Source of the DNA: Burkholderiales bacterium
GTDB taxonomy: Bacteria > Pseudomonadota > Gammaproteobacteria > Burkholderiales > SG8-41
DNA length: 64,000 bases
Direction of reading: 5' to 3'
NCBI GenBank assembly: GCA_030683105.1
Contig: JAUXMZ010000035.1
Coordinates: 1-64,000, forward strand
Below are positions 42 to 54,770 of this stretch, one piece after another (position 1 is the first letter of the stretch; every line of letters starts with the position of its first letter). Position numbers and translations under genes: made by a program. The notes beneath the pieces were generated by a model. That model made no database searches and had not been told where the DNA came from. It worked only from the letters and a program-made list of their open reading frames with translations.

Positions 42-67
42 AAACCCTTCCAAGGCACGCTATGACT

Positions 68-131
68 GTTCGACGAACGCTGAGACTCGGTCACGTTAAC
101 GTCAAAAAAGCGTTCGACGAACGCTGAGACT
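68..131. repeat. Two copies of a 20-bp direct repeat
   Basis: GTTCGACGAACGCTGAGACT occurs at 68-87 and again at 112-131, separated by 24 bp. Each copy contains the inverted repeat GTTCGACGAAC. The right copy carries an A-run on its left side and forms the terminator at 104-125. The left copy lacks the run. Confidence 0.8.
104..125 (-). terminator. Rho-independent terminator downstream of the Bug gene
   Basis: Read on the minus strand, AGCGTTC-GTC-GAACGCT forms a 7-bp stem with a three-base loop followed directly by six T. It lies about 100 bp after the stop of the Bug receptor gene and before the next minus-strand start at 41. Confidence 0.7.
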
Positions 132-137
132 TGCCCG

Positions 138-208
138 GTGATTAGTAATTGGTAATGTGAAAAAGCCAACCGCCTTCATGGTTTTACTTATCACCAATCA
201 CCAATCAC
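138..208. repeat. Inverted pair of heptamer tandem arrays
   Basis: Three GTGATTA/GTAATTG-type heptamers at 138-158 face three TTATCAC/CAATCAC heptamers at 188-208. The two arrays are roughly reverse complements of each other with 29 bp between them. They sit in the 3' flank of the Bug gene. Similar arrays occur near 5854, 7317, 51193 and 54617. Confidence 0.7.
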
Positions 209-5776: not shown

Positions 5777-5853
5777 GGTGACCTCCTGCTGCTCAATGGA
5801 TAAATCAGGAAAGATAAATCTGGACGCTTATTTTACTACAAACGCCTTTCTGC

Positions 5854-5874
5854 TAATCACTAATCACTAATCAC
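5854..5874. repeat. Three perfect TAATCAC heptamers
   Basis: TAATCAC is repeated three times without mismatch, just downstream of the pyruvate kinase stop and upstream of fbaB. No inverted partner array is evident within about 80 bp. Confidence 0.85.
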
Positions 5875-5880
5875 GGGGGT

Positions 5881-7308
5881 TTACGCCCGCCGGAGCTCGC
5901 CGACTTTAACTATCTTCATGGTATTGGTGCCGCCGGCCTTGCCGAAAGGCTCGCCTATGGTAAATACGATGTAGTCCCCGTTTTTCACCGCGCCCCGCTT
6001 CAGCAGTTCATCCTCGGCCATGATCAACGCCTTTTCCGGGTCGCGGGCGCCCTTGAACTTGATAGGATAGACGCCGCGGAACAGCGTCACCCGCCGGCGC
6101 GTCTCAGTCACCGAGCTCAGCGCATAGATCGGCACCGTCAAGTACATGCGAGACATCAGCAGCACGGTCTTGCCGCTTTGCGTCATCGCCGCCACCGCCT
6201 TGATGTTGAGACTATTGGTGCTGAACATGGTTGCGCGCGCGATCGCCTCTTCGACATCGGTGGGCGGGTCCGCGCGCCGCCGCTCCGTGCCCAGCGTATC
6301 CTCTTTCTCTGCTTCCACGCATACCCGCGCCATCGCGGCTACGGTTTCGACCGGATATCTGCCGGCGGCGGTCTCGGCCGATAACATGACTGCGTCGGTG
6401 CCATCGAGCACGGCGTTGGCGACGTCCGATACCTCGGCCCGGGTCGGAATCGGGTTGGTGATCATCGACTCCATCATCTGGGTTGCAGTGATCACCGCCT
6501 TGTTTTTATCGCGCGCCATGCGAATCATGCGCTTCTGCAGTGCCGGCACCACGGCGTCGCCCACCTCTACGGCAAGATCGCCGCGCGCCACCATGATGGC
6601 GTCGGAGGCATCGAGAATTTCTTCCAGAGCGGCAATCGCCTCGGCGCGCTCTATTTTGGCCACGATCAGGCTGTTGCCCCCAGCCTTGCGCATAAGCTTG
6701 CGCGCCCAGCGTATGTCCGCTCCCGAGCGCGGAAAAGACACCCCCAGAAAATCTGCCCTGAGTTCGGCGGCGAGCTTGATGTCCCGCTTGTCTTTCTGGG
6801 TCAGCGCCGGCGCGGTAAGACCGCCGCCTTTGCGATTGATGCCTTTGTTGTTCGACAGGATCCCGCCCTGCTCGACCACGCAATTGATGCGCGCTCCCCG
6901 GATAGACGACACCCCGAGCACGATGCGCCCGTCGTCCAGCAGCAGCGTGTCGCCGGCGCGCACATCTTTGGGCAGATTTTTATAGTCCAGGCCTACGATG
7001 TTCTCGTCGCCGATGTCGCACCCGGCATCGAGCACGAATTTCGCTCCCGCAAGCAGCGTGACCCTGCCTTCCTGGAATTTCCCGATGCGGATCTTCGGCC
7101 CCTGCAGATCGACCAGCACGCCCACCGCGCGCCCCGCCTTGAGCGCGAGCGCCCGCACCGTCGCAACCAGCCTGCGGTGCTCGGCGGCGGAGCCGTGGGA
7201 AAAATTCACGCGCACGACGTCAACCCCGGCCGCGATCATGAGCGCGAGTATCCCAGGGTCGCTGGAGGCCGGGCCGAGTGTGGCGACGATTTTGGTGCGG
7301 CGGGGCAT
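5881..7308 (-). CDS. pyk: Pyruvate kinase
   Basis: Converts phosphoenolpyruvate and ADP to pyruvate and ATP, 475 residues. The N-terminal PRRTKIVATLGPAS, the KIER motif, MVARGDLAVE and the long ITATQMMESM / AEVSDVANAVLDGTDA signature are all present, followed by the allosteric C-terminal domain. I start it at the ATG at 7308, because the possible upstream TTG lies inside the GGTTCAA repeat array. It is 101 bp downstream of pgk on the same strand, so fixed carbon can leave the cycle through lower glycolysis in the same gene cluster. Confidence 0.95.
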   Translation of the reverse strand: MPRRTKIVATLGPASSDPGILALMIAAGVDVVRVNFSHGSAAEHRRLVATVRALALKAGRAVGVLVDLQGPKIRIGKFQEGRVTLLAGAKFVLDAGCDIGDENIVGLDYKNLPKDVRAGDTLLLDDGRIVLGVSSIRGARINCVVEQGGILSNNKGINRKGGGLTAPALTQKDKRDIKLAAELRADFLGVSFPRSGADIRWARKLMRKAGGNSLIVAKIERAEAIAALEEILDASDAIMVARGDLAVEVGDAVVPALQKRMIRMARDKNKAVITATQMMESMITNPIPTRAEVSDVANAVLDGTDAVMLSAETAAGRYPVETVAAMARVCVEAEKEDTLGTERRRADPPTDVEEAIARATMFSTNSLNIKAVAAMTQSGKTVLLMSRMYLTVPIYALSSVTETRRRVTLFRGVYPIKFKGARDPEKALIMAEDELLKRGAVKNGDYIVFTIGEPFGKAGGTNTMKIVKVGELRRA

Positions 7309-7316
7309 ACTATGTA

Positions 7317-7344
7317 GGTTCAAGGTTCAAGGTTCAAAGTTCAG
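7317..7344. repeat. GGTTCAA heptamer array in the pgk-pyk spacer
   Basis: Three perfect GGTTCAA units (7317-7337) are followed by a degenerate AGTTCAG. The array ends nine bases before the pyk ATG, so it occupies the place where a ribosome binding site would be expected. Confidence 0.8.
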
Positions 7345-7409
7345 GGTTAGGTGTATCGGCGCCTGGGCGGCTCAAATCCCATGCTTGTTCTTACTGGGAA
7401 GCCGCCGCG

Positions 7410-49792: not shown

Positions 49793-51181
<1,389 letters not shown>

Positions 51182-51192
51182 TTAGGTGAATA

Positions 51193-51244
51193 GTGATTAA
51201 GTAATTCATGGCTTAGTCACTCAATTACTCAATTACTCAATCAC
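51193..51244. repeat. Inverted repeat arrays in the atpD-atpC spacer
   Basis: GTGATTAAGTAATT (51193-51206) and AATTACTCAATCAC (51231-51244) pair at 13 of 14 positions around a 24-bp loop. The right side contains three ACTCAATT/ACTCAATC octamers (51219-51242). The structure fills the spacer up to eight bases before the atpC start. Confidence 0.75.
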
Positions 51245-51252
51245 AAAAAAAC

Positions 51253-51675
51253 ATGGCAAATACCATACATGTCGATGTTGTCAGCGCCGAAGAGTCGATC
51301 TTTTCGGGAGAAGCGGAATTCGTCGTCCTGCCCGGCGAAGAGGGCGAACTCGGCATTTATCCGCGACATACGCCGCTGATCACGCGCATCAAGCCCGGCA
51401 CGGTTCGCATCAAACCGGCAGGTGGCGCCGACGAAGAGCTGATTTTCGTCGCGGGCGGCATTCTTGAAGTGCAGCCGGCTATGGTGACGGTGCTGGCTGA
51501 CACGGCGATTCGCGGCCAGGATCTCGACGAAGCCAAGGCGCAGGAAGCCATGGCCCGCGCCGAGGAAGCGCGTAAAAGCGCGGTTGATAAACAGGAAGTG
51601 GCCACGGTCGAGGCCGAAGTCGCCATGCTGGCTGCGCAGCTCGCGGCGATACGCAAGCTGCGCAAGAAGCACTGA
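51253..51675 (+). CDS. atpC: ATP synthase F1 subunit epsilon
   Basis: Rotor and regulatory subunit, 140 residues: an N-terminal beta-sandwich ([32 protein letters not shown]) and a C-terminal helical hairpin (about 90-138) that can inhibit ATP hydrolysis. It is the last gene of the operon, followed by a strong terminator. No good ribosome site is visible: the bases before the ATG are an A-run next to the repeats. Confidence 0.97.
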
Positions 51676-53263: not shown

Positions 53264-54634
53264 ATGGCGATCAATGTCGTAATTCTTGCTGCCGGTCAGG
53301 GCAAGCGCATGTATTCGCGCCGGCCCAAGGTGCTGCACGAGCTGGCCGGGCGGCCGCTCATTGCGCATGTGATCGAGACGGCGCGCGCCCTGGGCGCCGG
53401 GCGTATCTGCGTGGTCTACGGTCATGGTGGAGAGCAAGTACCGCAGACGATGAAATCGCCCGATATAGTGTTCGCCAGACAGGAACCTCAACTCGGAACC
53501 GGCCACGCTTTGCAGCAGGCGCTGCCGCATCTAAGTGCGGCCGCCACGACTCTGGTCCTTTATGGGGATGTTCCGCTGGTACGGCCGGAGACGTTGGGGG
53601 CCATGCTGGACCGCACCAAGGGAGTCGTAGTGCTGACCGCCGAACTTGACGAGCCCACCGGATACGGTCGCATCGTGCGCGATAAAACGGACCGTGTAAC
53701 CAAAATCGTGGAAGAAAAAGATGCCAGCAAAGCCGAGCGGAAAATCCGCGAAGTCAATACCGGCATCATGGCGCTGCCGACCCGGAAAATCGCCGGCTGG
53801 CTGGGTAAACTAAAGAATCACAATTCGCAGGGCGAGTACTATCTGACCGACATCGTGGCGCTGGCGCTGGCCGATGGCGTTGCGGTCAAGACCACCAAGA
53901 CGCGCGAGGCGTGGGAGATGATGGGGGTCAACAGCAAGACGCAACTGGCGCAGCTTGAGCGTCTTTATCAGGCGCAGGCCGCGAACCGCCTGCTCGAGCA
54001 GGGCGTATCACTGGCCGATCCGCTGCGGCTGGATGTGCGCGGCCAGCTCACGTGCGGCACTGATGTGCGCATCGATATCAACTGCGTATTAGAAGGCAAG
54101 GTCACGCTGGGCGCGGACGTTGAAATCGGCGCTAACTGCGTACTGAGGAATGTCGAAATCGGCGCCGGCACGCGCATCGAGCCGTTCACGCATATCGACG
54201 AAGCAGTGATAGGCGCAGGCTGTCGCGTTGGCCCCTACGCCCGCATACGCCCTGGAACGCGATTGGGCGAGGATGTGCACATCGGCAATTTTGTCGAGGT
54301 CAAAAACAGCGAGGTTGCCGCGCACTCCAAGGCCAATCATCTCGCCTATGTCGGCGATAGTACGGTGGGACGCAATGTCAATATCGGTGCCGGGACCATC
54401 ACCTGCAATTACGATGGCGCCAACAAGCACCGCACGGTGATAGAGGACGATGTGCACATAGGCTCGGACGTGCAGCTGGTTGCGCCGGTCACCATCGGCA
54501 AGGGCGCCACCATAGGCGCGGGTGCAACCATCACTAAGGATGCGCCGCCAGGGAAGCTTACGTTTACCAAAGCAGAGCAGGTCACCAAGCCGGGCTGGCA
54601 GCGGCCGCAAAAGAAAGTGAGGAGTGAGAAGTGA
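53264..54634 (+). CDS. glmU: Bifunctional GlmU, UDP-GlcNAc synthesis
   Basis: Acetylates glucosamine-1-phosphate and then makes UDP-GlcNAc for peptidoglycan and LPS, 456 residues. The N-terminal pyrophosphorylase has [18 protein letters not shown] (about 8-25). The C-terminal left-handed beta helix of hexapeptide repeats runs from about 250 and includes the acetyltransferase stretch [19 protein letters not shown]. The final residues VRSEK are encoded by the heptamer array at 54617, so the natural C-terminus has apparently been replaced or extended by repeat sequence. Confidence 0.96.
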
Positions 54635-54759
54635 GGAGTAAGGTGTTGAAAACAGGGCTATTGGGGTGGACTGTATGTGAAGAGACAGTGAAATCTGTCT
54701 ACTTTCCCGTTGCGATGGTTTTCTGCCTCACGCCTCTCCCTTCTCCCCTCTCCCCTCAC
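54617..54759. repeat. Inverted pair of heptamer arrays between glmU and glmS
   Basis: GTGAGGA/GTGAGAA/GTGAGGA/GTAAGGT at 54617-54644 starts inside the last codons of glmU. TCTCCCT/TCTCCCC/TCTCCCC plus TCAC lies at 54735-54759, close to the reverse complement of the left array, about 90 bp away and 11 bp before glmS. The sequence between has no gene. Confidence 0.75.
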
Positions 54760-54770
54760 GAGGTCTTAGC

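Follow-up and report, generated by a model that had tools for sequence, protein, structure and literature searches.

In the genome of a Burkholderiales bacterium (GCA_030683105.1), we describe an intergenic architecture in which a G/T-rich tandem array at a stop codon is followed by a variable loop and by a complementary A/C-rich array shortly before the next start codon. The arrays fall into a widespread class of intergenic tandem repeats with heptamer (sometimes octamer) units, and in this genome they are a genome-wide feature. Their repeat units are restricted to particular genomes, and at some orthologous spacers the unit (sometimes of 8 bp) has changed in both arms. What is new is the combination of one architecture with many units, together with this replacement of the unit in both arms. 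We favor, at a probability of about 40%, the reading that the arrays grow by slippage, that hairpin-templated copying keeps their arms complementary, and that RNA-level selection sets their orientation, a mechanism put forward here from sequence comparison.

Results

The stretch of DNA analysed, called the window here, comprises 64,000 nucleotides (contig JAUXMZ010000035.1, positions 1 to 64,000). An earlier note on it had reported heptamer arrays in at least five spacers, three of them with inverted pairs able to fold as RNA hairpins, and had interpreted them as products of a spreading or self-amplifying process such as slippage plus templated inversion. Our results confirm the observation and partly support the interpretation. 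Tandem Repeats Finder recovered arrays in all five spacers, one of them with an 8-bp arm: period 7 was called at 190-208, 5853-5874, 7316-7348, 51177-51199, 54616-54643 and 54733-54757, while the call at 51219-51241 has period 8. Period-7 runs of at least 10 matches were found three times in the window and not once in ten Markov-1 copies.

At the first site, the left, G/T-rich arm (138-159, plus strand) consists of imperfect heptamers (GTGATTA/GTAATTG) that lie under the Tandem Repeats Finder threshold. It folds with a right, A/C-rich arm at 188-208 with GTGATTG units on the minus strand, delimited by the finder call at 190-208 and the RNA fold. Two single arrays flank the pyruvate kinase gene pyk (identified with NCBIfam) on the minus strand: (GTGATTA)3 at 5853-5874, read on the coding strand directly after the stop codon, and TTGAACC (GGTTCAA on the plus strand) at 7316-7348, which is A/C-rich on the coding strand and lies directly before the start. 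Between atpD and atpC, the left arm (51178-51206, plus strand) has 7- and 8-bp units and contains the atpD stop codon (51179-51181); the RNA fold predicts a loop of 8 nt (51203-51210, plus strand), and the right arm before atpC (51216-51244, finder and RNA fold) has period 8, with GTAATTGA on the minus strand. Between glmU and glmS, a GTGAGGA arm (54616-54643, plus strand) extends into the 3' end of glmU and includes its stop codon (54632-54634). It is followed by an 81-bp loop (54644-54724, plus strand), which is single-copy within the sampled 35% of the genome, and by a right arm of CCTCTCC and CCTCACG units before glmS (54725-54759, minus strand).

The three pairs folded better as RNA than their shuffled sequences, with z values of -3.3 for 137-209 (1 of 200 shuffles was equally good), -4.7 for 51178-51255 and -3.4 for 54615-54760. 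The spacing of 24-90 bp between arms given in the earlier note does not apply at atpD-atpC, where the predicted loop is the 8-nt one. For the single array within 5850-5890, the fold was not better than shuffles (z -0.6). No partner was called for the arrays at 5853 and 7316 in the neighbor-array analysis, whose period-7 threshold leaves the pairs at 138 and 51178 undetected as well. The genes flanking the arrays are ordinary: besides pyk, atpD, atpC, glmU and glmS, they encode fructose-bisphosphate aldolase and phosphoglycerate kinase, the latter matching solely a bifunctional model and below its cut-off. Since no Rfam family matched the window at gathering thresholds, a known RNA family was rejected.

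Further features were seen near the first array. A direct repeat, GTTCGACGAACGCTGAGACT, lies in two copies (68-87 and 113-132) directly before it, and window positions 42-155 also match near the starts of two contigs of a genome from another genus (G004) with 82-85% identity; this may be a dispersed element. The gene at 220-1188, which may be TctC-like, has no NCBIfam name and looks like a member of a large paralogous family; among the matches listed for six relatives, its DNA recurs in many further places at about 64-70% identity.

To place these sites in the genome (4.12 Mb, 78 contigs), we sampled 80 stretches, which together with the window amount to 1,461,009 bases or 35%. Density counts omit the window and four stretches picked near known matches (L067, L071, L075 and L076), leaving 1,308,584 bases; repeats may be over-represented in the 20-kb stretches that come from contig starts. 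At score 12, the 1,308,584 bases contained 144 arrays of period 7, whereas periods 6, 8, 9 and 10 gave 14, 7, 58 and 25 arrays, respectively. The arrays are thus not limited to a few sites. At score 9, the first sample (653,870 bases) held 110 period-7 arrays versus 5 in Markov-3 copies. In the whole sample, 153 of 174 period-7 arrays lay mostly outside called genes; this location and the dominance of period 7 are those of bacterial heptamer simple-sequence repeats. The units of 150 clusters were GTGANNN (75), GTTCNNN (42), GTAANNN (9), GGATTNN (4) and others (20), and adjoining arrays differ by single steps in some cases, as judged by eye. Clusters less than 5 kb apart share units more often than permuted ones (0 of 1000 permutations), which agrees with the spread of units proposed earlier, as does the restriction of units to genomes described below; part of this sharing may come from duplicated or imported segments. 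We dropped RGT as a universal consensus because GGATTGA and GGGNATC lack it; the G+T content of the strand describes the units better.

The 58 arrays of period 9 in 1.31 Mb form a weaker second excess, with units such as AACACAGAG and ACACAGAGG; 50 of 59 in the whole sample lay mostly outside called genes. One stretch picked near known matches (L075, G000:C38:40001-60000) has thirteen array clusters in its first 15 kb and few genes in first-pass calling; it may represent a cassette array or an island acquired from elsewhere.

The orientation of the arrays was scored in spacers of 15-500 bp between genes called by a self-trained home-made script, whose start positions are approximate. In co-directional spacers, after 13 mid-spacer arrays had been dropped, the ratio of G/T-rich to A/C-rich arrays was 49:2 on the left side and 7:49 on the right side (p=5e-20). 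The G/T-rich strand thus runs away from the stop codon, and the array ahead of the next start is A/C-rich, a polarity obeyed by 98 of 107 arrays; some of the 9 exceptions are ambiguous in strand (e.g., GATGAAC, GTTGAAC). On the transcript, the start of 46 of 58 G/T arrays falls in a range from 25 bp upstream to 19 bp downstream of the stop-codon end, and 50 of 62 A/C arrays finish 0-43 bp upstream of the start. Polarity held across units (GTGANNN 47:1, GTTCNNN 24:4, others 27:4). Arrays whose unit lacks a run of three G, 88 of the 107 scored, obeyed it as well (82:6); therefore, G-quadruplexes cannot be its general reason. Arrays with a partner obeyed it 65:3 and those without one 33:6. Array-free co-directional spacers showed no comparable strand skew, and background composition was rejected as the cause.

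Arrays occurred in 84 of 658 co-directional and 16 of 113 convergent spacers, compared with only 4 of 134 divergent ones (Fisher p=4e-4 against co-directional spacers). In convergent spacers, 12 arrays agreed with the polarity and 4 disagreed (p=0.08). As selection on 5' leaders should not act there, this favors a mechanistic cause.

When two arrays lay within 200 bp of each other (n=54), the G/T-rich one came before the A/C-rich one in 40 cases, the reverse order never occurred, and 14 pairs had the same direction. Each arm unit differed from the reverse complement of its partner by 2.08 mismatches, compared with 2.93 for shuffled partners (0 of 2000 shuffles). Inverted pairing is therefore above chance, as the earlier note supposed. 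The distance between arms ranges from slight overlap up to a loop of 156 bp. Among the 29 loops of at least 20 bp, 24 have no second copy in the sample, indicating that the arms mostly change in place and are not carried with the loop; a MITE or another transposed unit with a conserved core was rejected on the same count. All or part of a short core, CAGCCGACAGGCTG, is shared by five GTTC-type loops. Loops in other genomes (L319, L321, L327 and L328) hold further palindromes (CCCCATCCCC...CTTCAAGGGG; GCAACGTCAAAA) that look REP- or BIME-like by eye and produce nested inverted repeats.

We compared the same spacers in relatives. All 40 genomes searched for AtpC contained it, and atpD-atpC loci were taken from 29 relatives, 28 of which were resolved. 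Six of these 28 have an array pair, with some arms seen by eye only: one shares the pair of this genome and five use other units. The shared one, in G002 of the same genus, is a diverged version of the hairpin with low folding energy (z -3.4). The others carry GTGAACG (G004), GTGATCC (G023), GTGATGG/GTGATGA (G013), GTGAGGA (G015) and GTGAAAC (G009). No array pair was seen in the other 22 of 28. In the pgk-pyk spacer, where the window carries only GGTTCAA, three congeneric genomes share GGATTGA pairs; of six relatives, two show nothing there.

A further comparison was between G014 and G008 (89% identity over 1.9 kb). Twenty array spacers were taken from G014, seven were compared with G008 and five were resolved: G008 has a pair with another unit in four (GGATTGA once, the 8-bp GTGAACGR twice, GTAATTG/GTGACTG once), and one (L379) is empty. 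In 11 pairs from relatives, arms matched their own partner better than those of other pairs (0 of 20000 permutations), with weak matches in the G014 pair at L366 (rank 8 of 11) and the G023 pair at atpC (rank 5 of 11). This suggests that the layout, not the spelling, is kept in the same spacers of some relatives. The arms seem to change in place and in concert, towards units already used in their own genome.

Across genomes, the units are unevenly distributed. Of 300 genomes of the order, 76 contained the pattern GTGANNNGTGANNNGTGANNNGTGA, which was patchy inside genera. Overlapping matches numbered 280 in this genome, 91 in G014, 5 in G008 and 0 in G019, and 360 in G222, compared with 0 or 1 in five of its congeners and 12 in a sixth. 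Since this pattern misses other units, a zero count does not mean absence. The backwards-pattern control was not clean, as GTGATTA is its own mirror up to rotation: it matched 79 times in this genome and 124 times in G003, where the pattern itself gave 71. A count of period-7 arrays of any unit at score 12 gave 11.0 per 100 kb in this genome, 1.0 in G008 and 0 in 305 kb of G019, which belongs to a related genus. GTGAACGN three times over, searched in 20 genomes, had 72 overlapping matches in G312, 40 in G009, 37 in G008 and 13 in G235, one each in G001 and G002, and none in the other 14. In G160 (L311-L318), the unit is GTGACNN, with five constant positions and two that vary from unit to unit, which is hard to reconcile with slippage.

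In public genomes, the exact GTGATTA triplet occurred in at least 120 stretches from many phyla. Eighty such loci contained 114 other period-7 arrays, whereas no other period between 4 and 12 reached more than 14. Among the loci of other phyla, all found with one unit as bait, the arm order was 32:9 and arm matching was not significant (293 of 2000 shuffles).

Finally, we searched for enzymes that might account for the arrays, comparing 16 array-rich genomes (at least 25 GTGANNN matches) with 12 others, a rough split because the second group includes G008, which has another unit. Y1_Tnp was found in 11 of 16 versus 5 of 12 genomes; five array-rich ones (G222, G183, G291, G021 and G212) had no match, and only one of the six matches in this genome lies near arrays. 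On these grounds a RAYT was rejected as the engine. RVT_1 was found in 6 of 16 versus 5 of 12, and a reverse transcriptase was rejected because 10 of 16 array-rich genomes had no match. SbcD had no match in this genome and exceeded the cut-off in 2 of 16 array-rich genomes (G222 and G291) versus 3 of 12, with weaker matches in six more. As G222 and G291 are array-rich, loss of the hairpin nuclease SbcCD was likewise rejected. RAYT transposase, reverse transcriptase or the lack of SbcD do not account for the array-rich genomes.

Discussion

Heptamer tandem arrays are familiar from cyanobacteria, where they are called STRR. Calothrix heptamers are mentioned in the introduction of Rehm 2015 (PMC4692102), which refers to a 2007 survey for the bacterial heptamer excess and describes the role of these repeats as still to be elucidated. 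For the GGGAATC repeats of Xanthomonas, the same paper already reports heptamer excess, gene-edge polarity and convergent pairs, of which two genomes have 70 and 75; 83% of the GGGNATC positions are common to both. Like the GGGNATC repeats of Xanthomonas and Nostoc (PMC4692102), the arrays described here have period 7, are intergenic, form convergent pairs (40 in our sample), have the G-rich strand in sense after stops and in antisense before starts (98 of 107), and are rare between divergent genes. In contrast, that system consists of one G-quadruplex-forming unit, whereas we found many, mostly without runs of three G and some of 8 bp, and at some orthologous spacers the unit is replaced in both arms. 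The arrays here do not have a GGGNATC or GGGGA(C/T)T unit with G-tracts.

Geobacter metallireducens has tandem octamer pairs on opposite strands at variable distance, and tandem heptamer sites displayed as loops (PMC2700814). These fall into few fixed classes in one genome and were read as regulator sites; gene-edge polarity is not part of their description in the passages of that paper. As such pairs are in print for Xanthomonas and Geobacter, the paired arrangement that the earlier note called notable is not in itself new. The TAACTGA heptamers of a Beggiatoaceae genome (MacGregor 2015, PMC4679880) are also intergenic and mostly lie directly upstream of start codons, but they represent one unit, with similar heptamers rarely repeated, and 169 direct-repeat sets versus one indirect. 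REP/BIME elements (Di Nocera 2013, PMC3733652) are, like our pairs, intergenic hairpins between unidirectional and convergent genes, near 3' ends. In many cases their end provides the stop codon, and two arrays here likewise contain one. However, REPs are 20-40 bp long with a GTAG or CGTC tag, and the GTAG ones are linked to RAYTs; the arms here are tandem heptamers, and several array-rich genomes (5 of 16) have no Y1_Tnp match. Replacement of the unit in both arms and genome-specific units were not found described in the titles or abstracts of the open-access journal literature searched, and passages of three surveys (PMC12699852, PMC4060949 and PMC13155455) do not deal with heptamers.

In the reading we favor, replication slippage in transcribed spacers would grow the arrays, and a folded arm would serve as template for its partner, so that both arms turn over together. 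Short-homology strand exchange, chiefly among neighboring arrays, would carry units from one array to another, so that each genome acquires its own set. Hairpin-templated copying and strand exchange are known processes and would explain the concerted change of the arms. The slippage with templated inversion proposed in the earlier note would fit the data; by itself it predicts no polarity. Orientation would be fixed by selection at the RNA level, because a G/T-rich array in front of a start would provide GTG starts and Shine-Dalgarno-like GAGG, and because naked A/C-rich RNA behind a stop would attract Rho. Several results count against this reading. Slippage alone should give uniform arrays, yet those of G160 vary; the polarity extends to convergent spacers (12:4); periods 9 and 10 are raised as well; most relatives are arrayless at atpD-atpC; and the copying steps are ones that we infer. 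Loci from other phyla, with an order of 32:9, arm matching of 293/2000 and a one-unit bait, also weigh against it.

The strongest competitor, which we regard as possible though clearly less probable, is selection for an RNA stem-loop between genes that protects the upstream message or uncouples the two genes. It would explain the conserved layout: any complementary array pair suffices, so the spelling drifts while the stem stays, and in some relatives position and order are indeed the same with a changed unit. Three hairpins of the window fold well, arms match, and arrays avoid divergent spacers. However, symmetric stems predict no G/T-first order, partnerless arrays keep the polarity (33:6), 22 of 28 relatives have no visible array pair at atpD-atpC, and G019 of a related genus is nearly arrayless (0 in 305 kb at score 12). 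The polarity of partnerless arrays and that of convergent spacers are not fully explained by either templated copying or hairpin selection. An unlikely source of the spelling is a lineage-specific trans-acting enzyme (a transposase, a reverse transcriptase or one not yet known) that writes its own unit at spacer edges, so that a change of enzyme changes the spelling. The genome-restricted unit GTGAACGN (72, 40, 37 and 13 matches in 4 of 20 genomes, 0 in 14), bursts of arrays in single species of a genus, the constant core with varying positions in G160 and the somewhat higher frequency of Y1_Tnp in array-rich genomes (11/16 vs 5/12) are all in line with it. Against it stand the one unit found in many phyla, the five array-rich genomes without Y1_Tnp (G222, G183, G291, G021 and G212), the single Y1_Tnp locus of six near arrays in this genome, and RVT_1, unmatched in 10 of 16 array-rich genomes and equally common elsewhere (5/12); two enzyme families were covered.

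We give still less weight to plain slippage, in which the replicative polymerase favors heptamers and pairs are a by-product, a hypothesis that Rehm 2015 (PMC4692102) and MacGregor 2015 (PMC4679880) cite from Mrazek 2007. Period 7 does dominate here and in loci from other phyla, but this process gives no polarity, no 40:0 order, no matching arms and no sharing of units between sites. Equally improbable, in our estimation, is that the arrays are binding sites of a global regulator or RNA-binding protein, a role put forward for the repeats of Geobacter and Beggiatoaceae. The paired sites of Geobacter were named putative global regulator sites (PMC2700814), and TAACTGA lies directly before start codons in a Beggiatoaceae genome (PMC4679880); dozens of units in one genome, and a unit that changes between congeneric species, fit one protein poorly.

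Earlier work saw period, polarity and pairing for single units; here, the three are separated. Because the spelling can change in both arms while the layout is kept, the role of the arrays can be tested by ordinary comparative genomics and a two-gene reporter. A broader proposition, which we advance with considerable doubt, is that bacterial chromosomes have a spelling-independent spacer architecture, in which a G/T array anchored at the stop faces an A/C array anchored at the start, and that the spelling of both arms is rewritten together in each genome. If true, it would imply an undescribed concerted process that homogenizes hundreds of non-homologous sites, either by strand exchange between scattered arrays or through an unknown writer.
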